A DNA stretch of 64,000 nucleotides. Source: Circinella umbellata (Eukaryota > Mucoromycota > Mucoromycetes > Mucorales > Lichtheimiaceae). Location: contig JAIWNF010000009.1 of NCBI GenBank assembly GCA_025093555.1, positions 124,001 through 188,000 on the forward strand, given 5' to 3'. Shown here piece after piece: positions 16,117-64,000 of the stretch; position 1 is the stretch's first letter, and the number at the start of each line of letters is the position of its first letter. The notes under the pieces are model-generated. The model did no database searches and was not told the origin of the DNA. It saw only the letters and a program-made list of their open reading frames with translations. The position numbers were made by a program, and so were the translations under genes.

Positions 16117-17764
16117 CAGTAGTTTGCGAGTAAATTTGCGTACTGAAATTTTAATGATTTATAGTTTAAAGATTCATCTCACCAGCTAGACACCTATCAA
16201 AAAATGATACATAATGTCTAATGTATTCTTGACAGTCAGATTCTGTGACCTTATTGGCTGCCTCAGTAATTCTGTCACTAAGATTATCCTTAACTGTCAG
16301 ACGATCTCTTCTTACACCACCTTTAACCTTGGCCCAGAACTCCTCAATCGGATTCAAAAATGGTGGATAAGGTGGCAAGTAAGCAGCTTTGAAGCCTCGT
16401 TTTGTGATGTATTTTTGGATATCATCTGTTTTATGGATTGTTGCATTATCCATAACAATGTATCTTCCACTCATCCCATTATGATCTAAACATGTCATGA
16501 CTCCATCAAGAAATTCGAGGAAGTGAATCGCTCTGGTGCCTACTCTTCCGTTAAATTCCTCAACAGTTTCTTCAACAGAATTGTCGTTTCTTTTTCTTTT
16601 TTTCTTTCCACCTGAGGAAGCCCTTTTAGCAACTGGCTTTGGTTTTCTCAATGTCAAATCAATGACACCATACTCGCATATGGCACCTAGAATAGAGATA
16701 GAGACCCCCCTGTTCGACGCTACAACTTGTTTGGCAGGAGTTCCTTTCTTTGATCTTCCAAAGTTTCTTCGTAGATGCATATTGAAGCCGCCCTCGTCAA
16801 CAAAAACACAACTGGACATATATTCCATGTCTAGATCAGCCTTCCATTCGTTGATTCGCTCGATCCGTGCTTCAATAGTTTTAGGCGAATTTCTTTCGTC
16901 CAAAAGCTTATTGAGCTTCTTTAGTGTCAAACTGCAGTGATTGACAAGATGACGGTGGAGGTTGGACAAATCGATTGAGAGTGTCGTGAATTCGTCATAC
17001 AGTGCAGCGCGTGCGTCCCATAGTACAGTCGAAGGATTGTTGTCGAAAAATTCCAATAAGAACTTGGTATGTTCTTCTTTCAACTTACGGATATTACCTC
17101 TAAGATGGCTCATCTTTTGTCCTGGAAGCCATCCAGGATCATTCTGTAACTTATATTGACAAACATAGTTTTAAGCAGTACGTACAACAATACCTATGAT
17201 AAATGCTGCTTTCCTGGCAGACAACCCACAGAATATTGTTAGATCTATAAGTTCTTAAATCTGCTCTGCTGTATAGTCTCTATAATGACCCCTTTCTTTA
17301 CGAGAAACTATTTTCTTTTTTTCAGATTTTTTCTTTGCTTTCTTCTATTCTTCCAACTTTTTTGCTGTTGCTTTTCTGACTGCCACATGGTCGACTTCCA
17401 TAGAAACAATCTCTTGTCTATTCTCTTTCCAGCTATCAAAAGACATAGTTCGTCTTACTGCTGGTTCCGGAAGAGATTTAGCTTCAGCAGTATCTGTCAC
17501 GCCGGGATTGTATTGGATCCATTCCATGTTGGCAACATCAAACAAATCACGAGATTCTTCCTCAGAATCCATTGTTTCATCTTGAATAAGTAGAATCTCG
17601 TCATTCACGTTGAAATAATTCATGTACTCTTGTGGTACATCTGAAGAGAAGTTGTCTTTACTCATTAAATTGAAGTAAATAAAAAGGTGACTAGGAACAG
17701 TATGGATGAAAGAAAGGTACTGCGCAAATATTTTCGACTGCGCAAACTGGAAAAGAAAGTACTG
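16117..17764 (-). mobile_element. Tc1/mariner-type DNA transposon with TIRs and TA target site
   Basis: Left end: TA then CAGTAGTTTGCGAGTAAATT. Right end on the other strand: TA then CAGTACTTTC, followed by repeated TTTGCGCAGT motifs. Both ends therefore start with CAGT next to TA, as expected for Tc1/mariner insertion, and both carry TTTGCG sub-repeats. Length is about 1.65 kb, the normal size for the superfamily. The single internal gene is a transposase on the minus strand, broken by stops. Confidence 0.8.
16166..17665 (-). pseudogene. Tc1/mariner DD34E transposase with three in-frame stops
   Basis: Reading from ATG at 17665 to the stop at 16166 stays in one frame over 500 codons except for three stops (TAG near 17342, TAA near 17253 and 17175). 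The last 315 codons are open from 17113. Catalytic residues are all present: D in CVFVDEGGFN, D in RYIVMDNATIH, E in PIEEFWAKVK, with 34 residues between the last two. A helix-turn-helix region (GLSARKAAFIIGI) lies between the stops. All three stops could come from a single C-to-T change in a Gln codon, so this looks like a young, point-mutated copy. The catalytic part alone might still be expressed, but not the DNA-binding domain. Confidence 0.8.
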
Positions 17765-19775: not shown

Positions 19776-21162
19776 ATGAATCCATCAGTCTCAAACAGCG
19801 TTAATCTCATGAAAAGCATGTACTCTGATCTCGATCAGAGCTGTCCTGAATGGGGTCTTCTTTTTTCGCGTATCTGCAACCAAAATGAAACAGAAGCTGT
19901 CGAACCAAAAAAAAAAAACGTAAAGTCGTCAATCGCAATCGCTTGTTCTTCCAAGACATTGTATTAGGAGATTACTTTAAGCCTAATCCACGATACGATG
20001 AAGTTTTCTTTCGACGTCGATTCCGTATGCAACGCTCGTTGTTTACCGGCATTATGGAAAAGCTAGCGGTTAATTCTACCTACTTCCAACAGAAAAATGA
20101 TGCCACAGGATACTCTGGCTTCCACCCTTTTATTAAGGGAACCGCAGCTATGCGTATGTTGGCATACGGTGGTCCTGCAGATGCTGTTGACGAGTACTTG
20201 AAGATGGGGGCTTCAACGGCTAGAGAAGCACTAATTCGTTTTTGCGAGGGGGTTATTGAATGCTACGGTGACCAATACCTTCGTTCGCCAAATGAAGATG
20301 ATTTGGACCGTCTCCTCAAGACCAATGCGAAGCGCGGGTTCCCAGGTATGCTTGGCTCAATCGACTGCATGCATTGGGAATGGAAAAACTGCCCGACAGG
20401 ATGGGAAGGACAGTATAAGGGTAAGGAAGGTGCAACTACCATTATTTTGGAAGCTGTTGCTTCCCATGATCTCTTTATCTGGCACTCGTTCTTCGGTGTT
20501 CCTGGTACGTGTAATGACATCAACGTCTTGCATAAATCTCCATTGTTCAATGATGCCATACAAGGCAAAGCACCAGAAGTCACGTATACCATCAATGACC
20601 ATGAATATAACATGGGGTATTACTTGGCTGATGGCATATACCCTCCTTGGGCTACATTTGTCAGATCGTTCCCTGTCCCCCAAGGAAAAAAACAAAAGGT
20701 ATATTTTTAAAATCACAACATGATATAACGATTTATTTATTAAAAAACAGAACATGTATCTAATGTAAAAAAAATACTCTCATATAGCATTTTGTTGAAA
20801 GGCAAGAATCTGCTCGAAAAGATATTGAACGTGCTTTCGGCGTTCTTCAAGCACGCTTCAATATTATTAGAGAACCTGCAAGATCTTGGAGTTTGGCCCA
20901 CATCTCCAATATAATGAAAACAGCTATTATATTGCATAATATGATTGTTGATGATGAGCGTGACACATATAAGCGACACGTGAGCATAGATGACTACGAC
21001 ACCAGTAGTTATTCTGTGTCGCCATCATACAATAGAGGAAGTATAGCAAGTGATCATGTATATATCTCACGTATAAGTGAGATCCGCGATTCATCTATAC
21101 ATACCCAATTACGAAATGACCTCGTAGAACATCTATGGGAAGAACTTGGAAACAGTAATTAG
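19776..21162 (+). pseudogene. Harbinger DDE nuclease, one homopolymer frameshift
   Basis: Two exons, 19776-20698 and 20788-21162. The catalytic core is complete: D in MLGSIDCMHW, D in GTCNDINVLHKSPL, E in ARKDIERAFGVLQARF, all signature motifs of the PF04827/ALP1-like nuclease. The intron gives KQKHFVERQESARKDIERAF across the junction, as in relatives. The first 46 or so codons are one frame off from the rest. The shift falls in a run of 12 A at about 19907-19918, inside a would-be nuclear signal (EPKKKKRKV). One extra A restores a continuous frame, so this may be a real decay event or a homopolymer sequencing error. An internal ATG at 19943 would still give the nuclease domain. Confidence 0.82.
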
Positions 21163-45212: not shown

Positions 45213-46219
45213 CTACAACTTGGAAGCTTGCTTTTGTTGCTTATTATATAGCACTTTGGCTTCTCTACGTAAGAGTTTTCCAGCTGCATTTCTTGGAATT
45301 TTATCAATTACAAGTACACCACCACGAAGTTGTTTATGATTTGCTACCCGTTCATTCACCCAAGCCAGGATTTTGGATGACATACTTCTAACTACTTCGT
45401 TATCATTTTTGTCAGCACCAGAAGGTAATACTACTAATGCCAATGGAACTTCTGTATTTCGCTTATTATCATTGATACCAACGACAGCTGCATCAGCGAC
45501 ATAAGGACAGTCGTGAAGAACGGATTCCAAATCAGCAGGCGCAACCTCATGAAAAAAAAAAGCAGGAGTAATAATAAGTAAAAGAAGATTGAAAGAATTA
45601 TTGACAATTAATCACTTGCACATCAATCCAACCAACCTGGAATCCTTTATATTTGATTAGTTCTTTAATACGATCCACAAGGAATATATTACCATCTTTA
45701 TCTGCCTTGACGATGTCACCGCTATGGAGATATCCATCTCTGTCAATTGTTTCAGCCGTTGCTTCGGGATTACCTTTATATCCAATCATGATATTAGGTC
45801 CCTTGAGATAAAGTTCACCAGCTTGACCAATCGCGACCTCTTTGAACATCATATAACAGCATTTTATTAATATACCCTACAATAGTCCATTTTACTTTTT
45901 TGGCCAGCATAATAAGTCATATACCTTTTCCGTCAATGGGGTTCACAATCTTATATTTCATAAATGGTACGACACGGCCAATGGTATCCGGTCTAGCCCA
46001 TTCAGGGAGCTGATGCGTAATTACAGGGGATGCCTCAGACATTCCTACCAATTTATTATGTTTTCATATCAATAATACTACAAACGAAAAAGCTTGATAC
46101 CCTAACTATAATATAAACAACTGTCTTTTACCATAAGTATTATGCAAAACTGCATTGAACTTTTTCTCAAAACGGGTCACGAAACTGGCAGCAATTGGCG
46201 CAGCTCCGACACTCAAATT
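45213..46219 (-). pseudogene. C-terminal half of a peroxisomal acyl-CoA ligase (4CL-like)
   Basis: Exons on the minus strand: 46219-46132, 46044-45925, 45839-45637, 45545-45213. It carries AMP-forming ligase motifs from the middle on: VGAAPIAASFVTRFEKKF, TYGMSEASP, GELYLKGPNIMIGYKG, YLHSGDIVK, DRIKELIKYKGFQ and the C-terminal lysine motif NAAGKLLRRE. It ends SKL, a type 1 peroxisomal signal. Exon boundaries match the last four exons of the complete gene at 60.8-63.3 kb. At 46219 the homology stops inside what is exon 7 in that gene, and unrelated DNA follows. The missing N-terminal half lies at 58.43-59.88 kb on the same strand. Confidence 0.85.
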
Positions 46220-47087
46220 ACACCCCCCAGCCGTTTCCCAAAAAACGCGAGCACGTGATCTAACAAAATCAAAAAAAAAATCTCCCGTCTTTTGTTATGC
46301 ATTGAGAAATGAGATCAATTTTAGTGCCAACTTTTCTTTCAGTAACAGATTTAATATGAATTCAAATAAAAAGTATTGGAACGATTGAAAAATTAAAAAG
46401 TTGATGAAGAATGAGAAAACGAACATGGTGTTATATGTATCATCGAGTGAATGGGGAATATGTCTTTTAGATGTAATAACATAATCTATAGTATAGTGCG
46501 TCACATTATATGTATTCTGTTCATCCGAGTATCTGTTTATATGCAAAAAAGGGCGGTGCTACACCTATAATAATTATTGTAATTCTGTTTAAATACTTTG
46601 CGCTGGAAAGATGTGATCGACTTCCCTTGTTCAATACTACGTACTTTTAGATCAACGAGTCACCTTGTAAAGAGACCTTAAATATTAATGTGTTGGAAAT
46701 ATCTGTTGGAAAAAAGGAAGAACATCATAATTTTTAAATGATGATTATGTGTTGGATGAGTTTGGAAATATACCTTTATTTTGAGAAGGGTTAATTTTCC
46801 TTCTTGTTGTTAATGATTTTTCAATAGTATTACATACGTACGTAGCAATTATATTAGTGTTTCCTTTTAGCTAATGATGTTCACAATATTGATAGTATTC
46901 TTTTTGTTATGATGAAAAAAAAATTGTGGAATTCGGAAAACAATGAAAATGACAGGCACTTGAATGTTTTTTGGTGTGTAGGTATAAATGAGTTAATGGT
47001 AGAAGAAATAGAGCTGCTTAGGAAAAAGAGATAAAAGGAAAATATATATTTTCGTAAAAAAAAATCAATAGATAGAGAATATGAATA
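46220..47087 (-). other. region between ligase break and Fanzor stop; possible guide-RNA (omega RNA) region
   Basis: No protein gene is seen. The end at the ligase break is locally GC-rich (CACCCCCCAGCCGTTTCCC then AAAAAACGCGAGCACGTGAT). In TnpB/Fanzor systems the guide RNA is transcribed from the end of the nuclease gene into the adjacent element end, so this is where one would look. No fold or boundary can be assigned from inspection. Confidence 0.3.
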
Positions 47088-48912
47088 TTAATTCAAAAAT
47101 CCCACAAATTGAATCTTTCCTGATTCAACTGCTTTAGCAAAAATATTCTTTCCGCTGTTCAGGTCACGATCGAAAACTGAACCGCATTCACGACAGCGGT
47201 ACACCTCAGCACCACCAACTACACGAGCATTACCACATGAACTACATGTGACAGATGTACGTCTTTCTTCTTGCACCACAACAATTTTACCTAAAAGTTG
47301 TGCTGATCATTTATAGCGGTATTAGTTTAATTTACCATCTTATATAATGTAATAGTGAACACTACTTTTAATTTCTATATAAATTACCTCTTTGCGTAAG
47401 CTTAAGACGGAATTTGTAATGAGACCATAACAGCATCTGTCGTACTGTTCGATTTCTAATTACACGGAAGCCACGAAGACTCGAGTGTGCAATCATACTT
47501 TGCACATTAAACGGTGGTATGATAATTCCATCATAAGTGTTGAGAAGATAGTGGATCGTGCTGTTATGGTATTCGTCAGTCAAATTTCTAAGCACCTTTC
47601 TTTCTTTTCTTATAGCACTGTCAATGCATGCTGCTCTCTTTAATTTTCTCTTTGAACCAACGTTTCGTAAATTATCTCTCATTGAAATTAAAGTATCAAT
47701 TATTCTTCCACGACGCCATAATCTTTGAATGGCACTTGACCCAATTTTGGCCACCCCAACAGTTGGTGAATATAGCGAATGAGGGGTTCTAACACCTGGA
47801 TCAATTGCTGCCCAATTGATTGGATTTTGAATCAATTGCTCATTATCTAATCGTTCATTCCAAGCCATATACCAGTGTTTTATGTGTTGATCGTAGTAAA
47901 CTCGAATTCTTCCGGCACGAAGGGGAAGCGTGAAATTTCTCATGCCTCGAATGCGGCATACATTAGCCCAATTATTACGATAGTACGATGAGCGCACTAC
48001 GAAATGCAACAACTTGAACTAAATTACAAAAAAAAAAAAGATACATATGTGCATTTAATGAGAAACTATTACACAATTCTTTCCAACTTATTTTAAAATT
48101 ACCTTCTTAGTCCTGAACTTTATAGCACGAATATTGAGACGATGATTTCTTACTGTCGACAATGCCTGTCGCATACCATTTTCAATAGCATCAAACGTTG
48201 GGGCTTGCTGACGTTCTTCCTTCGCCAAATATATATTGATAATAATTCTTACAAGTCTTCGAAAAAACGCACCTCTTGACAGCACCCCTCGTGTATTCTC
48301 GAGTGCGGTTGTACGTATAAAGTTACTATTTTGCAGTTCTTGCGCAATTTCTCGTTCTTCATGATCATAATCGTTAATATTTAAGAAGTTACCCACTGTG
48401 AAATAAATTATATTGTTAGAGCTATTTATTGTTGTATCATTTTTATATGATGGAAAAGAAGAGAAATATTTACCTTCAAAACTGACTAACGATAGTCTTT
48501 TATACCAATTCAAGACAGTGTTATACGCTACTCGTGCGTATTGCGTGTTAAGAACCCATAACTGTTGAACTTCAGGGCTTGGGTATACTCGGACCTTTCT
48601 TGTACGGTATGTACCAACGTTATCAGGGACATCTAGTATCATATCATCGCCATCTTGATTGGGATCAAAATTGATGCTTTTTAAATCCTCATCAACATCT
48701 TCATCAATATCATCTTCGCCCGCTTCATCATCATTAGCTCCTCGGTTAATTTGATACAACGGTCTCAGTGCATTATGCGGAGGAGGACTCGTTTGAATGT
48801 TGAACCAAGAGAGATCTTGTTGAACAAGATTTACGTTTTCAATTGTGGGAGACCACAGGTTTGCCATGATATCTGGGGTGTTTTCTGTCCAAAAACTGTT
48901 AGCTTGGGCCAT
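47088..48912 (-). CDS. Fanzor (eukaryotic TnpB-like RNA-guided nuclease)
   Basis: Four exons on the minus strand, 48912-48474, 48395-48103, 48018-47388 and 47290-47088, give 521 aa. Intron 1 (79 bp) contains no in-frame stop, so a retained form is also readable for a stretch. Features: an acidic N-terminal extension (DDEAGEDDIDEDVDEDL); a TnpB-like N-domain (RKVRVYPSPEVQQLWVLNTQ); RuvC-I with Asp317 in NWAAIDPGVRTPHSLYSP; IIIPPFNVQSM at the canonical RuvC-II site, lacking Glu; WSHYKFRLKL; then VVVQEERRTSVTCSSCG, where Glu463 aligns with the alternative catalytic Glu of rearranged TnpB/Fanzor sites; a C4 zinc ribbon (C470, C473, C487, C490); and RuvC-III Asp497 in FDRDLNSGKNI. All key residues are present, so it may be active. 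Family assignment is firm; activity is inferred. Confidence 0.88.
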
Positions 48913-49075
48913 ATTTTCGAAAAATGAAATAAAATGATGTTAAAAAAAACCAAGAAGTTGGATTAAAAAAAGTTTTTATTGTTTCTTTTTATAAGACTGA
49001 TCATCCTCCATAAAGGTAAGTATCATTGATACAATGATTGGCTATTGTAAAGTTATATCACTGATAAATAATTAA
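48913..49075. other. 5' flank of the Fanzor gene
   Basis: AT-rich leader with a small perfect inverted repeat ATCATTG-ATA-CAATGAT near 49022-49038. This could be part of a promoter or of an element end; neither is shown. Confidence 0.3.
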
Positions 49076-49079
49076 GGAG

Positions 49080-49520
49080 TAATGCAGGAACCCCGACTTT
49101 ATCGATACATTCATTGTTCACCTCGTGTTACAGAGATTACTGCAGCTCAATGGACCAAATTTTGGTCCCTCGCAATGCTCAGATCGGTGCATCGCACTCT
49201 TCCAACCTCACAACGTTTACATGACTTAATCCAGGAACACTGAGTCACCAATATCTGCCAACCATGTCATATCACAATTGACAGTTCTTCTCAGCTGTCC
49301 ATTACGCTGGTCAGTTTGGACTTGTACATGGGACCGATATTTTATTGTGAGCCTGTCTTCGCTGGGATCTGATACACACGCACGATTTTGTTGAACACGC
49401 AATGTACTTTGCTGCCCATATGACACTCATGCTAGAATTTGATTTATCACAATCATCCTTTTAACCCTGTACAAGTTTCTCGTTCGGTCTTAAATAAATT
49501 ATTCACTCGTTGCAAGCTCC
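49080..49520 (+). pseudogene. relic of a LINE-type C-terminal region
   Basis: Reads MQEPRLYRYIHCSPRVTEIT and AAQWTKFWSLAMLRSVHRTL in one frame, then is broken by several stops. The KFW...M motif resembles the C-terminal part of fungal LINE polyproteins, before a Cys-rich end. The assignment is from memory of such elements and is tentative. The motif AAGGAGTAATGCRGGA occurs at its left edge (about 49073) and again at about 49789. Confidence 0.35.
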
Positions 49521-49891
49521 CTCTGATGATCAGTTGCATATGCTGATCAGTTCATTCTCTTTTTCTCAAAACATCGTTTTTTTTTCTATCTCTTTCCTCT
49601 ATGTATAGATTTACAAAAAAAACATTCTTGCTCTCTCGTTTTACTTATAATACTTTAATATTATTTGTATGTTATTACTATTATATTTTTACTCTCGACA
49701 ATAAAAGAAAGATAGATTACACAATCAATTGAGCCACAACTCGATGAATGATAAAATTTTTTTATCTCACCTGATTATTTATAAAAAAAGGAGTAATGCG
49801 GGATCGCTTTTTTGAATTCCGGATATACTCAAGTTTGGGAATTCGTGTATCTTTTTCTTGAATAGTATTTTAGTCATTGTCAATATTCGAC

Positions 49892-50928
49892 ATGGTAATA
49901 TAACTTGACGAATATTCTTGTTATGTTTTTTTTCCAATTTTGTATGTTTATGTTCCTTATTAACTTAATAATGACATACGTGTCGTCTACAGCAACAGCA
50001 ACAACTAAATGATGACGAAGATGTTATGCCACTTTTTGATGTTATCCAACGTAGACGTCGTAGCCGTCTTATTGACAGTCTGGAAAGAATTGGTTTAGAA
50101 TTACGTGATGATTCAAAACTTTGTCGAACGTACATAACAACGGGTATACCACCAGTTGATGAAGTGGTTTTTACTATGGAAGAAATGAGATGGTATTATT
50201 CACAAACGCAGTATCAGTTTACCGTTATGAATATTGATCATGCAGATGATAATTCTAGAAGGTAATAAATAACAACTTTTTGTTCTTGAACCAAAAATAA
50301 GTATAAGTATATATATATATATAATAGATTCGGTGTAGAAGCAGGAAAAAAAGAAGCAAGGAGAAGATGGCTTCAAGACCGGCTATTGAACGCTAGTAGT
50401 AGTATAAATGTTGAAGCAGTACCTTTCACAATGATGATAACTCTCGTTTCCGAAATGTATGATGTGTATATCGACTTGGTATCTGATGTTGTATTAAAAC
50501 AAGATAACCAATATCTCTATAATTGTATTATTCAGGCACCTCGTCAACAAGTAAGAATGGAACAAACTGCAAAGAGTATAATGATGGATATGATTCCTGA
50601 ACGTGTCAGACGAATCATGGCAAGTGAAATAAGTTCTGATTATGAAGATACAATTGAAAACCGTGTTTATGAAAAATTAAAAATCCGTTCTTATAAAGCC
50701 AAACTTAATGAATTAAATAATCTGACTCACCATCCTCAATCTTTGATAAACTTAATGCAACAGCAACGTCAAATACAGCCACGAAGAACAGCAAAAGAGT
50801 GGCATGAAATAAGAATTCATTACTATACTGCAAATGGTCTTATGCTGTCTGAATATTGGCATGTTCATCCTTCTTACTGTAAAGAGTTATTCTTTGCAGT
50901 TACAGATAAATATAAAAAGCATCAATGA
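49892..50928 (+). CDS. hypothetical 290-aa spliced protein
   Basis: Three exons, 49892-49894, 49993-50261 and 50328-50928, all with GT-AG borders and consistent phases; 290 aa. The first coding exon would be just the ATG, followed by QQQQLNDDEDVMPLFDVIQR. A start at the internal ATG (50026) is the alternative. The protein is charged and mostly helical (RRRRSRLIDSLERIGLELRD; MIPERVRRIMASEISSDYED; SLINLMQQQRQIQPRRTAKE), without a signal peptide or membrane segment. I do not recognise the family. It lies in the 12.2-kb segment with the Fanzor, divergent from it, so cargo or host gene are both possible. Confidence 0.55.
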
Positions 50929-51442
50929 TATATTTTTTTTTTATTTGCTACAGTAGTGTCAGCAATATAACCGATCGCGACATCATTATCATCATCAATA
51001 TCATGGTACATCTACAGTTGATATACATTGAACTTTTTTTTTTATTCTTTTTAACAGTATATTTGGCCTACAGCTATAACGTTGAATCATAAGATGGATC
51101 CGTCGATGGAAAGGTTATAACTTAAAAGGGTTATCACGTAGTTTATTTTAAATAAACTAGTATTATTTGACATTATCATTTTGTACTTGTTTTTTAATGG
51201 TTGATACATTACGTATATATGATTCTTTTTTTTTTGTTGAATCGGCTTGACATGCGTTATCATTATTACTATCGTCTCCTTGACTGAAAAAGAACAAAAT
51301 ACGTAATTTGACATGGTAAATTATTAAGCGGAGAGTTATACATTATTTCATTGCAAAATGTTTCTCAAAAGGGCTACTTATAATACGTAGAAAAAAAAAT
51401 TCTGCTTTTCAACCTCTTTTGTTCCATAAAGTTTTTTTTATA
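50929..51442. other. spacer
   Basis: AT-rich spacer between two plus-strand hypothetical genes; no coding exon is supported. Confidence 0.4.
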
Positions 51443-52653
51443 ATGGCACAACATCGTGGAAAAAACAAAAACAAAAAGAATAGCAATAGTGAAACTGCTA
51501 GTCATCCCACTCCTGCTAAAAGAAAAATACAAAATGTAATAACATTTGAAGACAAATGAATAATATTAGTATAAAAATATGATACGTAGTAATATTTTTT
51601 TATTGTATGTAGGATCAGTTTGTTGAGTACGAGCGCCCAAAGAAACGAGTGACAATGAAGAGCTGTAGAAGCTCAGGCACAACTCACGGACAACCAAGGT
51701 GTGCACCTTGCAAGAAGGCTCACGTAATATTTTCAATAGATATGTTGTTATAATTGAATAAATAGATAAACTTCATATCCATTATTTTTATAGAGAAAAT
51801 GTGATGGAACTCAACATAATTGTCTTTTCCGTGCTTCGTCGTCAACATCACCAGCAGTAGCAGCATCTACAACAATACTACCAGCGGTAGTAGAGCAAGA
51901 ACAGCAGGAAATATTTGTGTCCAAACACAAGAAAGAAGAAATTGATATCCCTTCTTTTAAACGAATATATGAATTGGTCAACGAGTACATGAACAAAATA
52001 AATTTACAGTATCCTTTATTTAAGCCATTTGATATCAAGAAAAAAATTTCAAAAGCAACAATTGATCGTTCGCTTTTGTTAGCATTGATTATAATTGGCG
52101 CAAAGTAAGATAAAAAAGCTGGCATGTTAATGTATATGTTTTTATAGGTATGTTTAAGGTTGAAGCTAAACAATATCTCTGTATTATTATGCATACATTC
52201 AGAATCAAAAAAGATGAACAAGCCATCGTAAAACTTGTCCACGAATTGAAAAAAAACATTGATATTACTAGCATGCATGTTAGCGAGTCAAATTGGTTGG
52301 TCTGGTTTACATTGGGCTGTACTACGGACAATAATGACAGGTACATAATTATTCATGTGTCACTATATAATAAAAACAAAGTATTTTATAGATACTGACG
52401 ATGTTTATATTAGCTCGATGTACAAAGATATTGCAAACATGTTAGTTTCTTTCATAAATATTTCAGATATATGTAGGGGGAAAATATGCCTATATGAATG
52501 TCTATGTTAACTAGCCCATTTTGTTGAAAATTTTTAATTAGAATTTCACAGAAACTTCTTTCTACTGACATTTTGTCAGTATTACAAAAAAAAGCAATTG
52601 AAGAGATGCAAAACAATGATGCTATATATTCTTTATTCCATGCTAAAAGCTAA
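51443..52653 (+). pseudogene. Zn-cluster-like hypothetical gene, one phase break
   Basis: Exons 51443-51535, 51613-51723, 51794-52104, about 52150-52340, 52414-52440 and 52542-52653. Except for the third junction, all introns are GT-AG with matching phases. The N-terminus is basic (MAQHRGKNKNKKNSNSE). A Cys cluster PRCAPCKKAHRKCDG then TQHNC resembles the first half of a fungal Zn(II)2Cys6 domain but has only four Cys. Later parts are helical (IPSFKRIYELVNEYMNKINL; DILSVLQKKAIEEMQNNDAI). The exon 3 to exon 4 join shifts frame, so either a splice site is missed, the gene ends at 52156, or it is broken. Function unknown; a DNA-binding role is only suggested. Confidence 0.45.
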
Positions 52654-53578
52654 ATTCATCAACAATATAATTCTTCATGATGAACGTGACCTATTCGCTT
52701 TTATTACTACAGAAAAAATATGTTTTCTATTACTTTCACTTATTATATCATTGCAAAAACAACAAGAACAAGGAAAGGATAATTGGCAAAAAACAAGATC
52801 GTATGTTGACCAACAAGGTAATTATTCACATGTTTATATGACAACTGATAATGTAACTGAAGTCCAAAACATTATCATCTGCATCACTTGCTTATACCAA
52901 AGCTATTCTTTTTGGGTATACTACATATTGTATCTGTTCTCTTTGGATCTTAAATATTATAGCATAACGTCTTCGGTTTTTTTCAAGAACAACCTTTCCT
53001 TTCTTTTCTTAGTATTGTTCCATATCAATATTATTCTTTGGCATGTACTCAAGCATATAAACACTGTAGTTATACATATTTCATTAAAATTAACCAACTA
53101 TACATTCAACGTGTTGGGTGAGCATGGTTCCCGACAATAGTATAAGCCTTTTTTATATTTGTATAAACAATCAAGATGATAAGTAATAAAAGCTGATAAT
53201 TTCGCAATACATTATTATGGTAAATAAACGTGAGCGTCATATTTTTAATTCACAAATACTTATAAATTTCTGCCTCTCTCAATATATACATAACTGCTTT
53301 TTTTCGTTCCACAAATTCATACGTACATATAATTTTTGTAATAATCAAGGTTGATTTGATAAAACATTTTTTTGTGAACTCTTCTTTCGTTTTAGTTTTC
53401 AAAGATAGAGAATCAATATCATTATACATTGGAGTCCATCGTCCAATAATATAAATGTTCTATCACCACGGCTAAAATGAGTAGTAGAAATGAATGGATT
53501 TCCATGAATCTGCATGATCACTATTGAGATCAATCTCTATGAAATGTGTCAGTTCATGGAGATCCATAGATCTATGTA
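52654..53578. other. no supported gene
   Basis: An open frame at 52598-53140 overlaps the previous gene's last exon in another frame and has the Phe/Ile/Tyr-rich composition of AT-rich noncoding DNA. ATGAATCTGCATGA at about 53503-53516 is repeated inverted on the far side of the next element (about 54437). Confidence 0.35.
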
Positions 53579-54389
53579 CCGTTACGGCTCGCTATAACGA
53601 TACACCCCGTCAGACCAAAAGTGCATCGTTATATCGAATTATCGTTATATCGAATTCTTGATTTGAGTTATAATGATCGGGTAAAATCCTATCCATATGT
53701 ACTTGACCTCACATATATATATATATGTCTTACAAAAAGAATAAAACTTTAACACCACATTATATCATTCATACAATAAATAAGCTATAAAAATATAAAA
53801 CCGTCCTTTTTTTTTCTTTGTGCAGTTTTTTTTATTAAATATTTCTTGACTTATTACTTCTGACTGAATTACAATCATATGGTCACATATAATTAATGCT
53901 GATCCCATATTAGTAAAGAAATGCGAGTATTGTACTTTTAAAATAAGCATCAAAAAACTGTCTATTGTTTATAAAGACATGCAAAATGACAAGAACAAGT
54001 ACGACCTGCATAGTTGATAAAAAAATTATGATTTTTATAAGAAAGAAGCAGAAGCAGGATATCACTGGCTTTCTTTTTGTGGAAAAGGCGATTCCTGAAG
54101 ATAAATTTGATGTTCAAATTATTTAACTCTTGACAAAAATGTTTACGTAAAAACTAAAGTAATAAAGTAAGAGCATAAAAAAATGCCCAACAAACTAGTA
54201 TTATTTCCTTTTAAAAAAATAAAGATATCATTTGTACTTTCGATATAACGATATTTTTGCTAAAATCCTATCGGATATCGTTATATAAAATTAACGATAT
54301 TTCCATGCTTAATCTGTATTGAACCCCAAAACCCTATCGTTATATCGAAATATCGTTATATCGAATATCGTTATAGCGAGCGGTAACGG
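53579..54389. mobile_element. pogo/Tigger-like MITE, 811 bp, TA target site
   Basis: TA lies outside both ends. Terminal repeats are CCGTTACGGCTCGCTATAAC (left) and CCGTTACCGCTCGCTATAAC (right, reversed), followed by repeated TATAACGATA/TATCGTTATA palindromes on both sides (about 53630-53660 and 54239-54370). Iterated CGATATAACGA motifs near the ends are typical of pogo/Tigger-type elements. No transposase lies inside, so it is non-autonomous. Confidence 0.8.
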
Positions 54390-55287
54390 TAGAATCATAG
54401 ATATTCAGTCATATCCATTACCTAGTTATAAGTAGATTCATGCAGATTCATTGATGCTTTATAGCCTAGTTTCTAAATGATATATATTTTAGTTTATGAA
54501 CATATACCTTATACTGTGGCTGTAACATGGTTGAACCAGTTCTACTATATTATAATAGACAATTTGAATAATAAAATATATTTTTTTGTGAGTCATTAAC
54601 TTTATGAGATAATGAGAAAAGTAGTAAAAGAAGTGCGTGGGAATACTACTTCTCTCCAAGCGATTATGGTTTCACGAAGTATAAGTATGCGATTTCATAG
54701 ATTATCACTCGTATTTACAAAGCATGATATTTTTTTTATAGATATTTGTTCAGTTTTATCCAGATTTATATATTATTCAGAGTCATACATTGTCACTCAG
54801 ATCCGTTAATTTTTGTAATAAAGATTCATGGATTTATGTCCTTGAAAATGAATGATTGTCTCTTTTCATGCATATTCATAGAGAAGCATGGTATTTCATA
54901 ACCTATAAATTCTTATTCATAGAAAATTAGGTAATTACATGCAATTTTTAGCTACGGTATCAGGTTTTACAGTAGCTTCTCGTTGAACCGGTTCTCTTGA
55001 TATGTACGAATCTGTACCGCTTTAGAAGTGCCAGTTGAGTTTTTGAAATTCAAGTGAGAGCAACAGAACATGGTGGAAGATGAAATATAAATGGTTTAAG
55101 CCGTACAAAATAAAAAAAATGGCAGTTAATATAATGTATCAAACTGTATAGTCTTAACATCGTGATCTTAACTTCTAGTAATAGAAAAGGTAATATTGAT
55201 AAAATTTTGAGTTCAATGAGCCAGGGCTTGGATCAATAATAGATTCACAACAAAGTGTGTATTCGTATAGACAATGGTTGTTAGTAG
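54390..55287. other. no supported gene; ATTCATG-motif-rich flank
   Basis: Short ATTCATG/ATGAAT motifs recur at about 54430-54450 and 54820-54890, and also left of the MITE at 53485-53560. This suggests an outer, older repeat into which the MITE inserted. No coding exon is supported. Confidence 0.3.
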
Positions 55288-55565
55288 TTGAGTAAATTTA
55301 TGTGTATGAATGAATCGTATCAACGTCGTAATTACATATTTAACTACGATGACCAGTTGCACAAAGAAGTAGACGAAAAAGAGGAAAATAGCATCCGTTT
55401 GAAGTTGGAAGGGAAAAACAAAATAATCAACAATTTGTTGGTAAATTTTCTCTTGACAACAAAAAAAACTGTATATTGCTATTTGGTGCGCTTAAAAATC
55501 TAGTAGCTGGAAAAAAAGGGAAGGTCTGAGATGACGTTTTAGCGAGGTCATATTACTGATTTACC
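55288..55565 (+). pseudogene. relic paralogous to the 34.7-34.9 kb segment
   Basis: Open frame 55288-55503 contains DDQLHKEVDEKEENSIRLKL and NKIINNLLVNFLLTT. The equivalent segment at 34.69-34.92 kb reads KERVDKKEE and IINNLLTNFLLAT. The nucleotides also match (TTTCTCTTG(A/G)CAACAA; GA(G/A)ATGAC(G/A)TTT). Both lose frame afterwards. Likely two decayed members of a dispersed repeat or gene family. Confidence 0.45.
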
Positions 55566-55569
55566 AATC

Positions 55570-57410
55570 AAAAGAGTAATAGTTTTATACAAAATAAAAA
55601 AAAATACTATTAGTATAAATCCGGTAAAAGTGTGAACAATTCCACCAGATAAGTTACCTTTTTATTTAATCATCAGTATTTTACCAAGTACTATATATAT
55701 ATATATATATATGAGAAATACTACCGGTTTAGAGAAATACTTGTCTAAACTGGTACTAGTCTTATGAAAAGTTACCATATCATAACGAGGATCAATTCTG
55801 TTAATTATAATAGTAACTTTCGCGATTTTCTTATTGTGGATGTATCCGTACATTTTGCTTTCGTTGGTTAATATAAGATATTAGTGTATCAATAATCTTT
55901 ATTATTTTTGATGTCTCATTAGTTATTGCTAATATTTTTCCTTCGATAAAATATATTAAGAGCAAAATATAGTAGTGGTATATATATAAATATATCGATT
56001 ATTAAGCGTATTATATTTTGTTTATTAGTCAATTACTGTAGTAGTTGTATATTAAAAAATCAATGGCTTTTAAGAACGTTGACAAGTTGATTACTTGTTT
56101 GATACGTATTTATTTATATCACAAGAATTTGCACATTTACACTACTGGCGATAATAAAAAAAAAACCAAGACTTTATCTCTTTATTATTTTGCTTTCCAA
56201 TAATAAGAGTACCCGAGTACATCATCCTTCATGAACCAATGGAAAAATTACCTCAATTCTACTTTAGTTAATTATTCTATCTATTCGTTACGTATGAGTT
56301 TTACATCTACAGTGATTTATTTATCAAATCCTATGGGTTTATGCAGAATTCCGATGTTCTATAAAAAAAGGCCTTTTTCAAACTTGTACGTATCATATAA
56401 GCACAATATCATAAAATATAAAGCCAATTGAAAAAATTGATCAAAAGGATGTACATTTTCTTAATATTATAAACATGTACATCTTATCATTCTTGGACTG
56501 ATAAATCATTTTCAATACAAGTGATCAAAATTACGTACGTAATGATCCTTTTTTTTTCATTGATAACAAAACCATCCGTAAAAATAATCGTTTTAATTCT
56601 CACGACTTACAACAGACTTTTTACTAATACTTTTAACGAAATGTATATATTGTTACTATTAAAAATAGTAACCAAAATAATAATATGCTTCTTGCCTATC
56701 CAGTGACATTCGTCTCGTTTATTTTCAATAAGGTTATCGTTGAGATCTAGTTATCTAGAAGATGTCGATGTAGTTTTTTTTTGTTGTTGTCAAAAGTCCA
56801 ATTCTGTTGTCATTATAATTTTTAAAGGCGCTAAGAATGATATAAACATTGCATAAAACAAAGTTTTTTCAATCTCATGATTTGACTCATAATAAAAAGA
56901 TATAAATAGGTTCGAATATAATTTTTATCACTCTCTCTCTCTTTTATAATTATCATCGTACACTGAATACTACATATTGTACATCCTCGTTTTTTTTAAC
57001 ATTTTTGTCGTCTCAGCCGATACTCAAACAAGCAAATCATGATGCATTCTTGTATTGAATTTCTACTGGTTCAATGACAAATTGTTTCTTTTTCCATCCG
57101 GTCTTTCTTCTGGTACTACTCGTAGGCCATCCTGGCTTTTTTCAAGATGTCTCTTCCGGTTAACAAGATTATCCTGAATAAGATCAGTGTTTTTCAACTG
57201 CTATTTGGTTTTTTTTAATGGTCAAGTGGGTTGTCAGTCTATATTTTCGCTACTGTCACTACTGGTTACAGGTGCCATTTATTACTTTTCAAACGATACA
57301 TTGTTTAGAGTAAGTAATTATTATGATTATTTTTTTGGTAACGGATGATGATAGAAATTATATGTCATATTCATATACAGAAGACTAACTCTGAATATAT
57401 TCTTTTTCCC
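55570..57410. other. no supported gene; AT-rich DNA
   Basis: Contains a TA microsatellite (about 55693-55712) and many ACGTAC palindromes. A stretch at 57050-57300 has near-normal codon composition but no recognisable protein. No further feature is supported. Confidence 0.35.
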
Positions 57411-57420
57411 TGATTCATGG

Positions 57421-57652
57421 GGGGGGTCCTTTGGACCTGCTCCATTTTTTATACTAGATCCTTAGAAAGACAACGCTCGATAACCAAGAGCATTTATGTT
57501 GCTTCTTTCTGGATATTAAAATCTGTGAGCATGTTGTCAGAAGCTTCGGCTGACGACCTCATGCGTTGTGGGACGCACCGCCTCCGGGCGCAGGCATAGG
57601 GACCAGTTACTTCTGTCCTTCGGGACTTCTGTACACTGGAGTAGCCCTATGC
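57421..57652. ncRNA. GC-rich island with stable hairpins (structured RNA or element remnant)
   Basis: In strongly AT-rich surroundings, 57540-57652 is GC-rich. 57594-57652 folds into a closed hairpin: GCATAGGG pairs with CCCTATGC, CCAGT with ACTGG, and the tip is GTCC-TTCG-GGAC, a UUCG tetraloop. Upstream, GGTCC-TTT-GGACC (about 57426) and TGCG...CGCA pairs add further stems. It could be part of a SINE, a LINE 5' region or an independent structured RNA. No class can be assigned. Confidence 0.35.
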
Positions 57653-57837
57653 TTAAAAACGTGTAAGCTAATTTCTTATTTTCTGCAGTTTTTGGGAGAA
57701 AAAAATTAAAAGATTTCAGTAATTAACCCGCGCTTTTTTTGAAACTCCTGGGTAGCACCTCAAATTTTTAAGACTGGATAAATCATACTGTAAAGTATAA
57801 AAATTAAAAACATTTTTATACCGACATAATCATCGTC

Positions 57838-57868
57838 ATCACCATTATTATTATTATTATCATTATTA

Positions 57869-57937
<69 letters not shown>

Positions 57938-57945
57938 GTGTCACA
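57838..57945. repeat. ATT/ATC triplet microsatellite
   Basis: About 35 triplets of ATT with scattered ATC. The minus strand reads as poly-Asn, which is why it mimics an open frame. Confidence 0.95.
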
Positions 57946-57969
57946 ATGTAACCTCATTATGAGATATTA

Positions 57970-58115
57970 TTGGCTGGCGCAAGGCCACTTTTCTGGTAGA
58001 GCAATGCCACTTTTCTGGCAAACCAATACCACATTTCTGGCAAACCAATGCCACTTTTCTGGCAAATCAATGCCACTTTTCTGACGAAGCATTGCCACTT
58101 TTCCGGCATTGCTAC
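57970..58115 (+). repeat. tandem repeat of a roughly 24-26-bp unit, about six copies
   Basis: The unit is GCCACTTTTCTGGCAAACCA with minor changes (CACATTTCTGGC, CACTTTTCTGACGAAGC). It lies just inside the right end of the 12.2-kb segment between the ligase halves. Confidence 0.85.
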
Positions 58116-58428
58116 TAGTATAAATAGCCCAAATTATTTTAATAAAATCTTTTCTTTAGTTCTATCTTTACCTTTAAAATCTTTTAGTCTTTTAACAATT
58201 AAATTGACCTAACAATAGTTTCCTTTGAGCATAAAGTCTCTTAAACTCATTATAAGATTTCTCTTTTGTGGATTCAGACGTAATATTCCTGAATATAAGA
58301 ACTCCCACAACCCATATTTCTATCATATTTTATATAATTTATTACTCTAATACAACAACATAGTGTATTATTTCTTCTTTATTTTATATCTTTATACGAA
58401 GTACTTCAATCACACATTGAACGCTTCA

Positions 58429-59877
58429 ATACTTGTCAACTTGTGGATCACTCAAGAAATTGATAATGATAGGAGGTGCTAATATTTTGGTAACAATCAG
58501 TATTTTTAGTTTGAAAAACGACTAACAACAAAATAAATAATAAAATACAATATACCTGTTTGAAAATCAGTCACTTTAAATCGCTGAATTGCTTCACATG
58601 CACTTCTAATCGAATATTTTTCTAATATTATTGTGGTCGCACCTGCAGGAATACCAATCTATTTTTTATTGCATTTAATACACAATAAAATTAATTATGA
58701 TTATATGATATTTTTACATGTTAAACGAATAAAAAAAAACGTACAGTAAATGCACGATGAATGCCACCGAAATGGTACAACCTAAATACAATTTTTATGT
58801 GGTATAAAATTTGTCATTTATGAAATCTTTGACCCAGCTGGGAATAGTAATCTAAAAAATAGCAATACTTACGGAAGGGCTGCGAGAATAATTTTACGAA
58901 TAGAAGGATCCTTAAAAGTACCGTAATAGCTATCAGATTCCACTATAAGTGAAATAATGTTGTAGTGACTAATAAAAAATATTTTTTCAGCAGATCGTTA
59001 TAAACACACCTGACTATCATGCATTGTATACGTATCACTAGTATTCAATTCATTTATATGTCTATACCTAGTCATTACTCCTTTACTACGGCCTGTTGTT
59101 CCTCCAGAAAAGCACAAGTATCCAACAGTGTTCACACTTTCTTCGTGAGTCATTTTGACAGGAGAAAGCGGAGGCTGTTTAAAATTGATAAAGGCATCTA
59201 ACCATAATGGAGCTCTTTTTTGTGGGTCAGGGACAATGGAGAATACGTTTGAGACTGGAATTCCTGCAAGAGCAGCAGCCTCAAGTGCTTTATCTAAGTT
59301 ACTTGGATGTGCAATAAGCACTTTAGCTTCTCCGACCTGAAGCTGATATTGTAATTCATGTGAAACGTAAGATGTGTTTGCAGGGCTAATTGTCATGCCT
59401 ATGATATACAACAAGTTGTTTAAAAAGAGGTGAGTAATAGGTCCATGTATACATTCTTACTTTGGTTCAAAATTGCCGGGTTCGTACTATATTAGCACAT
59501 AAAAAGGAGTATTAGATACCTGCAGACATAACTCCAAGATATATAGGTGCCATGTAGATCTATATAGATTTTCATTCATGTTTTTATTAATAATCATAGT
59601 GCCAGCTGATGATTCGCAAAGAATATCTAAGATAATAAAACAAATTACAGTACGTACGTACATTATTAGGAGTGTATATACAAACCGTATCACCTCTTTT
59701 CAAACCAAGGCGCTTCAACCCCGCATGAAAGTAATAGACCAATTGACGAAAATAATGCAAAGTAATTGATTCGCCAGTGTACGCATCAACAAACATCGGA
59801 TGATGCTGAGGACGACCCATAGGATTACTGAGCATTATCTCTGCAACATTTGTAAACTCGTATTGTTTTGAATACAT
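58429..59877 (-). pseudogene. N-terminal half of a peroxisomal acyl-CoA ligase (4CL-like)
   Basis: Exons on the minus strand: 59877-59662, 59559-59520, 59398-59068, 58968-58873, about 58780-58744, about 58661-58559 and a cut exon 58478-58429. Starts MYSKQYEFTNVAEIMLSNPM. The nucleotide-binding loop YLCFSGGTTGRSKGV is intact, as are PLYHFGGIHRAF and GATTIILEKYS. Exon lengths equal those of the complete gene next door where they can be measured (216, 40, 331, 96 nt). Homology stops after DPQVDKY, and TGA follows at once. The matching C-terminal half is 12.2 kb away at 45.2-46.2 kb. A truncated protein could be made but would lack the C-terminal catalytic lid and peroxisomal signal. Confidence 0.87.
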
Positions 59878-60813
59878 GTGTAATCTCTAGTCTAGTGTTG
59901 TTGATCTATCAATATTTTGAATGAAGTATAAAAAATAAAAGTCAAGAAGAGACGTGATTGTAAAAGAAAAAACGAGGAGAAGGAATGCACATATCTGCAC
60001 GCTTTGAAGTAATATTTTTTTTTTCATTTTTCCTCACACGCATTTTTGTTATATGTCGTAGTAATCACTTAACACACGATGATACCAAATTCCCAGGGTA
60101 TGATTTATTCTTACTCGTAGTAAATAGCGCTGGTACGCAAACATTTTGTCTAATACTTCAGATAAAACAAAGCAATGAACCAAAATATGACTAGGTATGC
60201 TTCAGTTTTTACAGCAGTAATGGTGCAGCACATCAAAAAATTAATTAATATACCATTAAGAAAAACAACCCTATGAATGATCATACCACCAATACGTAAA
60301 GATAATAATATTTTTCAAAACGAAAAAGAAAAAATAAACTTTTATGGGAAATAGATCCCCCATCAAACCATCAATTAATAGTACAATGCTTATTAATATG
60401 TAAATAAAAAATATTTTGTGAGGGGGTAATCACTCGGCGTGTTACGTAGTCGCTATTTAGAATAAATTATGCAGCAATTAGATGTGACATAAATCTATAT
60501 ATGCCGCAATTCTGATACGTAAATTCTGTAGTGTTTTCGAAGTATCAATTGGTTCTACTATAGATTTATACATGTAGTTCTTCTCATGTTTGCGTCACTA
60601 ATACTTAAATAATATAATGTCTGTTTCTACGTTACATAGAAATAAAGCTAATCATTTGATTACTGTGTAAGCGTTAGTTTTTCAACAAGTCAGAGCACCA
60701 TTAGCACTAAAATATTGGTAGCAAAGGGTACTAGTATTTTATTCGGCAATATATTTTTCATTCTTTGTTATTAATAATGACTTTTTGGTGCCTCTTTTTA
60801 TACATAATATATA
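59878..60813. other. spacer between tandem ligase genes
   Basis: Contains the promoter of the broken ligase and the 3' flank of the complete one. No coding exon is supported. Confidence 0.4.
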
Positions 60814-63305
60814 TTATAACTTGGATACTCGGTCACCAAAAAGTTCCTTTTGTTGTTTTTCATAAATTATCTTCATATTTTTACGCAAAATTTTTCCAGC
60901 TGGATTCTTAGGGATTTCATCAATTATACGAACGCCACCACGAAGTCGCTTATGGTTTGCTACCCTTTTATCAACCCAGGTATTAATTTTTTCTGGTAAG
61001 CTGCGAGATTGGCTTTTATAGCTCTCAGTTAAAACGACAAACGCCAATGGGATTTCAGTCCCTTGTGCTTCGTCATAAACGCCAATGACCCCAGCATCAG
61101 CGACATATGGACATTGCATGAGAACTGATTCTAATTCAACAGGTGCAACCTATACGTATATAAAAAAAATAACAATAGTACTCTCATATTAAGTAAAAAA
61201 AGAAGGAGAAAACTTTCAACTAATCAGTTATATTAATCCAACCAACCTGAAAACCTTTGTATTTAATTAACTCCTTGATGCGGTCAACAATATAATAGTT
61301 TCCTTCCTCATCTCTCTTCAAAATGTCACCGGTATGTAGCCAATTATCCTTATCAATGGCATTTGCTGTAGATTTAATATCACCTTTATATCCAAGCATT
61401 ACATTAGGCCCCTTGACAAGCAGCTCGCCTGCTTCATTGTTTCCCAATTCTAAAAATTGATTGTGTAGATAAGGAGTCTCGTTTTATCAGTATTCTGTCA
61501 CTATTCCAATTTAACCACACTAATTATCTATCCAGTATGAAAAGGTTATTGTATACGTACCATTTCCATTTTCATCAACAATTTTAGCTTTCATCATAGG
61601 AACTAGACGGCCGACAGAATCAGGTCTAGCAAAACTAGGTAATTGATAAGTAATTGCAGGTGAAACTTCAGTCATCCCTATACAAAATAAATATTGCTGA
61701 ATGTTAATATACATAGTACTACAACTTTGGTATATTTTATAGATATTCCATCCCTCTATTATTTAATCATCGTACCGTAACCCTGCAATAAAGTAGCATG
61801 ATTAAATTTCTCATGAAATCGAGTTACAACACTAGGGGCAATGGGTGCAGATCCACAAGTCAACGTCTTGAGACTAGATAAATTATATTTATCAACCTTT
61901 GGATTATTCACCAAATGTATAATAATAGGAGGAGCTAGAAAGAGCAACAATTGGAATATCATATTTATAATTCTGCGCGCTATCATTGATAATATTATAA
62001 AAGTTGAAAAAATTTACCTGATGGAAGATCAGTCACCTTAAAACGCTGAATTACCTCACATACTGTGGTAACAGAATATTTCTCTACTATTATAGTAGTT
62101 GCTCCTTGCGCAATACCAACCTATCATTGATTGTCCAATTATTGAATTAATTTTCTGTAACCATTTTTAGAATTTATAAACAAACTTACATTAAATACAC
62201 GATGGATACCACTAAAATGATATAATCTATGATACATATTCAAAGATTTTGATATTATTATAACCTCAATTCTTTTACGTTCTTTTGAAATCAGCAATTT
62301 TCTAATAAACTACTATTCTTACGGAATTACACCAGCAATAATTTTTTTGACAGATGGATCTGCAAAAACTCCAGAAAATACGTTAGACTCCTGCACCATA
62401 GCAATACAATTATAATGACTACGTAGCAATAAAAAAAAGTGCCCAAGGTATGTTAGTACATTTTCTTCAGTAGTTTATATATATTATATTTAAATAAACC
62501 AATTTACCTCGTCATTACTCCCTTGCTCTTGCCAGTGGTACCAGAGGAGAAACACAAATAAGCAGTGGTATTTACGCTTTCATCATGTGTCAATTTAATA
62601 GGTGAAAGTTCAGGCTCATCGTAATCAATGAGAATATCTGACCATATAGGCACTCTTTTCTTTGGATCATGAATAACAGAAAAAATACTAGATCGTGGTA
62701 ATCCTGCAGCAGCCGCTGCTTCGAATGCAGTATCCAAATTATTTGGATGTGAAATAAGAATTTTGGCTTCACTGACTTCTAATTGACGCTGTAATTCACT
62801 TGTAACATATGATGTGTTTGCTGGGCTAATCGTCATACCTATATTTAACTCGATTATTTAATTATAACTTTTTTTTACTAATTATAATAGGTCATATTGC
62901 ACTTATTCCCAATGTTACGTATAATATAGTATTGCAATAAAATTACCTGCAGACATCACTCCAGTATAAATGGGTGCCATATTGATCTGAACACCAAAAA
63001 TGACATGTTGATTTAATATTCAAATACAAACAGACAGCATGATTGTATAACTTATTTGTGTTTTTTTGAAAAGATATAGATTAACTTACATTATTGGGAG
63101 AATAAAAGCATACAGTATCACCCTTTTCCAATCCAAATTTTTTTAAACCAAAATGAATAGATCCAACCATTCGACGAAGGTGAAACAAGGTAATTGACTC
63201 ACCAGTATGTGCGTCAATAAACAACGGTTCATGTTCAGCGCGACCCATAGGATTGCTCAGCATCATATCTGCAATATTGGTGAAAGGATAATTTTTGGTA
63301 TACAT
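60814..63305 (-). CDS. peroxisomal acyl-CoA ligase (4-coumarate-CoA ligase-like)
   Basis: AMP-forming ligase that would activate a carboxylic acid to its CoA thioester in peroxisomes. Ten exons on the minus strand: 63305-63090, 62986-62947, 62838-62508, 62418-62323, 62226-62190, 62120-62018, 61934-61776, 61677-61561, 61449-61247, 61149-60814; 545 aa, the normal family length. Motifs: YLCFSSGTTGKSKGVMT (P-loop), TCGSAPI, QGYGMTEVSP, WLHTGDILKRDEEGN, DRIKELIKYKGFQ, PAGKILRKN (catalytic Lys). It ends VSKL, a PTS1 signal. The start was chosen to match the paralog's MYSKQYEF; an ATG two codons upstream (63311) is possible. Substrate (fatty, phenylpropanoid or other acid) cannot be decided. Confidence 0.92.
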
Positions 63306-64000
63306 TTCCATTTGTTTATGTAAATATGCAATCTTGTAGCAGTGGTGTATATAAATGAGTTGTGAAAAGAAGAAGAAAAAAAAAGTGAAAGAAAAGACGA
63401 AAAAGATTACTTTGAAGATAGTTTTTCTTAAACTTACACGCATTAATCTATGCATAAGTTGTTCTATATTATTGCAAAGTACAAGTGGTACTACTGTACT
63501 TCCTAACTTGGAACAAAGGTTCCCAGGATATTAATCTTTTTGTGACAGAGTGGAAAAAGATATAAGCTTTTTTACTAGCAATCTCCTTGTAACAAAAATA
63601 TGGTAAGTCACTCACAACTTTTTCCCTAGCTTACAAATATGTTTGTAAATAAAAAGTGTGTCAAAGGGTTGGCTCAAGATACATTTACCCTTTTTCACTA
63701 TTTTTATGTGTATGTCATGCTTTATTAAGATACATGAAGAATAATGAGAAAGAGATTTATGCTTTTTTAAAATCTCAATAACGATAAAAGAATTCGCACA
63801 AATAAAAGAAGAAACCAATCCCTAACAAAAGTATACATATTTAAATAATAATTCTTTATTCTGCCTTTCTTACTGCGACATGATGTAATGGTTAAATGGT
63901 ATTTTGTTTAACAAAACAATTGAAATGATGTCATTACGTAGCAACTCTAAAATTATAAACAATTCGATACACCAATTTTATATTAATATCATAGGTAGCA
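63306..64000. other. upstream region of the ligase gene; no other gene seen
   Basis: The first 150 bases hold the promoter side of the complete ligase, with purine-rich tracts (GAAAAGAAGAAG) on the plus strand, that is pyrimidine-rich on the coding strand. The rest is AT-rich without a supported exon. Confidence 0.4.

Follow-up and report, generated by a model that had tools for sequence, protein, structure and literature searches.

An intact, probably Fanzor2-type gene carried by a cut-and-paste transposon within an acyl-CoA ligase exon

The stretch of DNA analysed here (64,000 nucleotides, hereafter the window) contains an intact gene for a Fanzor of the TnpB family, whose sequence predicts endonuclease activity. 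In the explanation that fits the locus best, to which we assign a probability of roughly 80%, the product is a probably Fanzor2-type endonuclease that is carried as cargo by a cut-and-paste, non-IS607 transposon and would bring about its RNA-guided homing. Fanzors, the RNA-guided DNA endonucleases of eukaryotes, are related to the RNA-guided nucleases behind CRISPR-Cas12. Others of this kind have been described before, and the present locus is clean enough for testing: the gene is intact, the element ends are precise, a target duplication lies within a coding exon and a family of copies lacks the protein, so that guide, target and homing can be predicted.

The Fanzor gene and its predicted active site

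The gene runs from 48912 to 47088 on the minus strand, in four exons that are joined at GT...AG introns and have no internal stop. Its predicted parts are as follows.

48474..48912, minus strand: Fanzor exon 1, with the ATG at 48912-48910
48396..48473, minus strand: intron 1, 78 nt, GTAAAT...CACAG, CTAAC 19 nt before its end, no in-frame stops
48103..48395, minus strand: Fanzor exon 2
48019..48102, minus strand: intron 2, GTAATT...TTTAG; search for a CTRAY motif, none found
47388..48018, minus strand: Fanzor exon 3, with RuvC-I D317 (DPG) and IIIPPF at the lost canonical Glu site
47303..47387, minus strand: intron 3, preferred form, with acceptor 47303 (first-pass form ends at 47291)
47088..47302, minus strand: Fanzor exon 4, with the relocated E467, the C4 zinc ribbon, RuvC-III D501 and the stop TAA

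The first-pass annotation, made from the sequence alone, had proposed a four-exon gene free of stops and frameshifts, and we recovered the same open protein from exons 48912-48474, 48395-48103, 48018-47388 and 47290-47088 (522 codons including the stop). The motifs it listed were found as well: in the numbering of that splice form, D317 in IDPGVR, the C4 ribbon, D497 in DRDLNSGKN, and IIIPPF at the usual RuvC-II Glu site with E463 before RRTSVTC. Exons and motifs thus stand, but the last acceptor is probably a different one: 47303 fits the relatives better than 47291. Acceptor 47303 lies 12 bases earlier, keeps the frame and adds AQLL ahead of GKIVVV, which would give a protein of 525 aa with D317, E467 and D501. 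We prefer it because it closes a four-residue gap in the alignment with mimivirus L79, because the alignment with a cyanobacterial TnpB (L103, below) then crosses this stretch without a gap, and because a CTAAT branch-like motif lies 18 nt upstream. The splice sites are predictions; three GT...AG introns, two of them with a branch-like motif, in a genome of 50.8 Mb that has no relatives among the prokaryotic genomes compared, point to eukaryotic coding. Since intron 1 contains no in-frame stop, its retention would also leave the frame open.

The identification as a Fanzor is supported by family profiles. The C-terminal TNB zinc ribbon (PF07282) matches with 48.4 bits (cut-off 26.3, E 1.1e-12), and residues 106-506 align to positions 2-388 of the 389 in the NCBIfam guided_TnpB model (NF040570; E 8.8e-14), at 51.6 bits, below the cut-off of 100 of a model set built for bacterial and archaeal proteins. 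The best PDB chain is the mimivirus TnpB-like protein L79 (9b0l; E 2.4e-20). The profile search proposed along with the first identification therefore favours the TnpB/Fanzor families. Other zinc-ribbon models match more weakly, all under their own cut-offs, and the PF07282, guided_TnpB and L79 matches rule out another kind of zinc-ribbon protein.

The protein also fits the pattern published for Fanzors, DPG-x(120,160)-E-x6-CxxC-x(12,18)-CxxC-x(4,8)-D (PMC10711439), and none of 20,000 shuffled versions of it does so. The same paper describes the relocated Glu as a Fanzor hallmark, in agreement with the first-pass annotation. At the canonical Glu site the window protein reads IIIPPF, L79 ICIGKL and L103 IFLPTF, and in all three a Glu lies six residues ahead of the first zinc Cys. 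D317, E467 and D501 are the predicted RuvC active site.

The host transposon and the interrupted ligase gene

The first-pass annotation did not include the 11.5-kb transposon around the gene or the interruption of another gene by it. The features concerned are listed here.

46220..57758: Fanzor-carrying transposon, 11,539 bp
46220..46251, plus strand: left terminal inverted repeat, imperfect, paired by eye
57727..57758, minus strand: right terminal inverted repeat, imperfect, paired by eye
46212..46219, plus strand: target site duplication CTCAAATT, left copy
57759..57766, plus strand: target site duplication CTCAAATT, right copy
45213..46219, minus strand: acyl-CoA ligase, 3' half, Pfam AMP-binding_C
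57759..59886, minus strand: acyl-CoA ligase, 5' half, Pfam AMP-binding, with a second interruption at about 57795-58430
60814..63530, minus strand: tandem related ligase gene, uninterrupted at the insertion site; empty-site yardstick, compared at this site only
49975..50928, plus strand: companion gene of no known family, two exons joined by eye at about 50265/50329

The transposon sits in a coding exon of an acyl-CoA ligase, which we take to be a 4CL, and splits this metabolic gene in two. When the flanks are joined with one copy of the duplication they stay in frame and read QYDLSSLKNLSVGAAPIAASFVTRFEKK, where the tandem relative has the similar KYNLSSLKTLTCGSAPIAPSVVTRFHEK; the corresponding joined-flank reading is QYDLSSLKNLSVGAAPIAAS, for which the relative has KYNLSSLKTLTCGSAPIAPS. 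At 57795-58430 the same ligase gene is broken by a second insertion, about 640 bp long, which by eye contains short tandem repeats and has an AGTAT-like repeat at its borders.

We set the element's bounds at 46220 and 57758 because a short copy on contig C151 aligns first to 46229-46542 and then piecewise to 55903-57758, and because 13 aligned rows become more conserved at 46220. Twelve copies were examined, 11 of which could be compared (the copy on C90 has no recognisable left end). The target duplication agrees at 8 of 8 bases for the window element, 9 of 9 on C24 and 8 of 9 on C6; at least eight matching bases were thus found in 3 of the 11 compared copies and never more than six in mismatched flank pairs (n = 110). 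The other eight have no clear duplication; for at least three copies (C151, C140 and C127) the automatic placement of the ends was wrong.

Duplications of 8 to 9 bp and imperfect inverted ends tentatively mark the element as Mutator-like. The label is tentative because no transposase was found in the element and 8 of the 11 copies lack a clear duplication. None of the MULE transposase matches (PF10551) in the genome, at least 77 of which lie elsewhere, is within the element, and frames of at least 60 aa in the inspected 2.5 kb of the copy on C136 (about 5 kb), judged by eye, suggest no transposase there either. Many MULEs lack a transposase of their own, and the MULE transposases encoded elsewhere could act on the element in trans. 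An IS607 origin was considered and ruled out by the inverted ends, the target duplication and the absence of any serine recombinase (PF00239) match in the genome, in a search that was positive in 10 of 14 control genomes; canonical IS607 Fanzor2 elements have that recombinase and neither terminal inverted repeats (TIRs) nor a target duplication, and the window element has the reverse.

The companion gene has no Pfam match over cut-off, and its second exon none in the PDB; among the matches listed, the sole other genome match of that exon adjoins a Fanzor fragment on C178. Exon-like pieces at 51440-52700 (plus strand), also inside the element, would by eye join to a zinc-cluster-like motif (CAPCKKAH and RKCDG); three of the pieces had no Pfam match. 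A dispersed repeat is nested at 53573-54000 (at least 33 of 41 rows, 79-94% identity, 40 of 185 candidates scored). Elsewhere in the window, DDE_3 and Plant_tran transposase frames lie at 16166-17170 (minus strand) and 19889-20707 (plus strand).

Placement among Fanzor and TnpB proteins

A scan of prokaryotic genomes returned 71 loci, with 58 usable open frames and 13 without a frame carrying the motif. The top scorer among the 58 frames was a TnpB of the cyanobacterium Okeania sp. SIO2C9 (L103; 33% over 202 aa). Nine frames shorter than 300 aa were left out of the tree and 49 were kept, for 52 rows in all. A looser expression for DPG plus the relocated Glu matched two of these 49 frames (at least 300 aa), L130, spurious by eye, and L103, which is the sole true case among the prokaryotic frames. 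Five archaeal, mostly haloarchaeal TnpBs (L116, L130, L133, L159 and L165) have a Glu at the relocated position and no DPG at RuvC-I, and form a separate clade (100/98).

In the 52-row tree the window protein groups with L103 (99/94), and with L103 and L79 (98/87). When L103 and the Fanzor1-type row were removed it paired with L79 (98/91; identity to the compared part of L79 is 28.6% over 220 residues). Removal of L103 and L79 left it beside two archaeal TnpBs with the canonical Glu, in a three-row set (98/84) that was marked as a long-branch join, and it did not join the Fanzor1-type row. The reduced trees were also made without L157, all trees drew a long-branch warning from the tree tool, and the Fanzor1 side is a single Fanzor1-type row from the same genome. 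Given its fit to the Fanzor pattern, the TnpB models and L79, and given that L103, its best match among the prokaryotic loci found, shares its rare active site, the window protein is probably Fanzor2-like, a placement that long branches leave unsettled. Scans for viral relatives found none.

A Fanzor1 in a Mutator-like element would be a different account of the locus, and one that we consider rather improbable. What speaks for it is a parallel in Mucor, Rhizopus and Phycomyces: Bao and Jurka place Fanzor1 in the MuDr elements MCi-4, PBl-3 and ROr-4, which have inverted ends, duplicate about 9 bp at the target and encode no transposase of their own (PMC3627910); the window element looks similar. 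However, this likeness is by description rather than by inverted-repeat sequence, and those proteins are classed as Fanzor1, whereas the one here is probably Fanzor2-like.

The same genome offers a direct comparison. On C134 (locus L028, 4758-7253) lies a gene that we take to be Fanzor1-type by its motifs (DPG, RTSKECSHLC; PF07282 25 bits, under cut-off), with a 90% copy at C138:584968 that has two stops. The best match between it and the window protein covers only 28 residues (E 0.003), and two pieces of it (241 and 142 aa) matched none of the TnpB models, whereas the alignment of the window protein to a bacterial one extends over 400 residues; the grouping with L79 and the cyanobacterial TnpB likewise argues against Fanzor1. 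A PDB search with a profile of the window protein and L79 met no Fanzor1 chain; the C134 gene, run as a control, met no Fanzor chain either, so the search was dropped as a test.

With the Fanzor2-like placement preferred, the locus resembles the rare Fanzor2*, a Fanzor2 within a TIR transposon: the TIRs and target duplication are present, and the Fanzor2 part is probable from the protein comparisons. The likeness rests in part on the serine recombinase not being found in the genome. Fanzor2* has been described for the alga Chloropicon primus and for molluscs such as Mercenaria mercenaria (PMC10711439). Shared with it are the DPG at RuvC-I, the Glu six residues before the zinc ribbon, the TnpB-like layout and a cut-and-paste element with TIRs and target duplication. 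By description, the present case differs in its host lineage (probably fungal), its 8-9 bp duplication and its 11.5-kb element, and it has both a companion gene and a set of short ghost copies. If the placement is true, it adds one more case to the few TIR-transposon Fanzor2 proteins, which have been suggested as a stepping stone to Fanzor1 (PMC10711439).

Other systems share fewer features. Mimivirus L79, the closest solved chain by sequence, has likewise lost the canonical Glu and relocated it, and is presumably one of the IS607-type Fanzor2 genes of that virus. Those genes, as described in PMC3627910, sit in IS607-type elements without TIRs or target duplication, in contrast to the window Fanzor. 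The pro-Fanzor TnpB L103 has the same DPG and relocated Glu but is prokaryotic. As described in PMC10432273, SpuFz1 of Spizellomyces punctatus and its ghost Spu-1 also show more protein-less than Fanzor copies, with common transposon ends, and a guide RNA at the gene's 3' end, where one is expected here by analogy. SpuFz1, however, is a Fanzor1 with many copies, whereas here one of at least four loci is intact and the omega RNA is a prediction (PMC10432273). Since Saito and co-workers report Fz2 broadly in fungi, a fungal Fanzor2 alone is not new (PMC10432273). Within the open papers on Fanzor, MuDR and Mucoromycota, Fanzor is mentioned, among the matches listed, only in PMC3627910.

The locus may go further than these precedents: a Mutator-like transposon may have captured a Fanzor2 independently, in what is probably an early-diverging fungus with a Fanzor1-type gene as well. 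The one intact protein would then serve a genome-wide set of ghost elements in trans, and the whole would be an extant intermediate for the origin that has been proposed for Fanzor1, from captured Fanzor2, with an insertion site that predicts guide and target. For this combined proposal we would give somewhat less than even odds.

Candidate guide RNA, related copies and the state of the gene

Two segments beside the gene would be involved in guiding.

46220..47087, minus strand: 3' non-coding region to the transposon end, expected place of the putative omega RNA scaffold
46195..46219, minus strand: predicted guide segment AATTTGAGTGTCGGAGCTGCGCCAA, the first host bases past the element end

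For those Fanzors that have been studied, PMC10432273 reports a guide RNA that arises at the gene's 3' end and can pass the transposon end, with guide lengths of about 11-21 nt. By analogy, the window protein would bind an omega RNA produced from the transposon end on the 3' side of the gene; the 3' tail of this RNA would read into host DNA past 46220 and serve as the guide. Such a guide would begin AATTTGAGTGTCGGAGC and fit the empty ligase exon, and its natural target would be the allele of this exon that lacks the element. The RuvC site (D317/E467/D501) may cut the matching sequence beside a target-adjacent motif, and cutting would favour repair from the element-bearing copy, by which the element would be kept.

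The end region itself gave little at the RNA level. On the expected strand it folds no better than shuffled sequence (z -0.87; 35 of 200 shuffles fold as well), and in an alignment of 14 sequences 1 of 18 consensus pairs changed on both sides, which 160 of 500 shuffles equalled; the covariation score was equalled in 26 of 500. Although 96.2% of cells pair, against 35-54% when the alignment is slid, this is expected anyway for a structure drawn from the same alignment. An Rfam search of the region returned one chance-level match (22 bits, gathering threshold 50). A conserved RNA structure across these 14 sequences is thus unsupported by fold and covariation, and the flanks of the few copies gave no consensus for a target-adjacent motif by eye. 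Because RNA-level support is little, Fanzor activity at this locus is something that we infer.

The end region has been copied far more often than the gene (genome-wide counts are lower bounds). A search with 46100-47087 returned at least 34 rows, or at least 31 loci including the window, that share all or part of 46220-46542; at least 18 of these, the window not counted, have the other element end within 6 kb (four continuation rows were omitted from the end pairing). At least 27 dispersed repeats carry all or part of the end region and have no Fanzor coding match. Such ghost loci with working omega RNAs have been reported (PMC10432273).

Protein similarity to the Fanzor was found at at least four loci, of which only the window copy reads open. 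The copy on C156 is about 95% identical in exons 2-4, truncated at its 5' end and broken by stops and frame-shifting indels; C101 holds a 3.5-kb element with many stops and indels, and C178 a fragment with stops. The C156 and C101 copies share a 31-bp deletion (47810-47840) that lies directly ahead of the RuvC-I motif and puts the coding sequence out of frame. The two are not each other's closest relatives and, by eye, direct repeats flank the deletion, so recurrence or gene conversion is possible.

Is the open frame, then, a sign of function? An intact but inactive TnpB-family relic, open by chance and with no functional guide RNA, is the strongest of the competing accounts, though an unlikely one. 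The decay of the other family loci and the absence of a convincing RNA structure are in its favour, as is the recent history of the gene: since the split from C156, neither the substitution count nor the codon positions give a positive signal of selection. On the window branch there are 10 non-synonymous to 6 synonymous changes (p 0.23; positions up to 48640, 398 codons, with exon-1 positions non-homologous in C156 excluded), some of which may be parallel changes in both decayed copies, and the differences from C156 by codon position are 17/26/21. Of simulated copies, 27.5% were still stop-free after 22 neutral changes. Against a relic stands the retention of all catalytic and zinc residues and of the published Fanzor spacing. 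The comparison with C101 also points away from it, with differences of 80/497, 55/495 and 87/493 by codon position; the second position differs least, a mild coding signature only. After 111 neutral changes just 0.65% of simulated copies were stop-free, a figure to be read with the window branch's share of the 222 C101 differences not fixed. A host gene domesticated from a Fanzor would also be the only open copy among at least four family loci and have introns, but the gene still lies between complete transposon ends, inside another gene that the element has broken and with the target duplication still legible, as expected of a mobile passenger, and we consider domestication very improbable.

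The decayed copies differ in how they have changed. In the C156 copy, 30 of 38 changes are G-to-A or C-to-T, and C-to-T changes fall at 38 of 142 CpG sites, 14 of 267 CA, 6 of 115 CC and 1 of 213 CT; its decay is mostly at CpG, and the C101 copy has no CpG preference.
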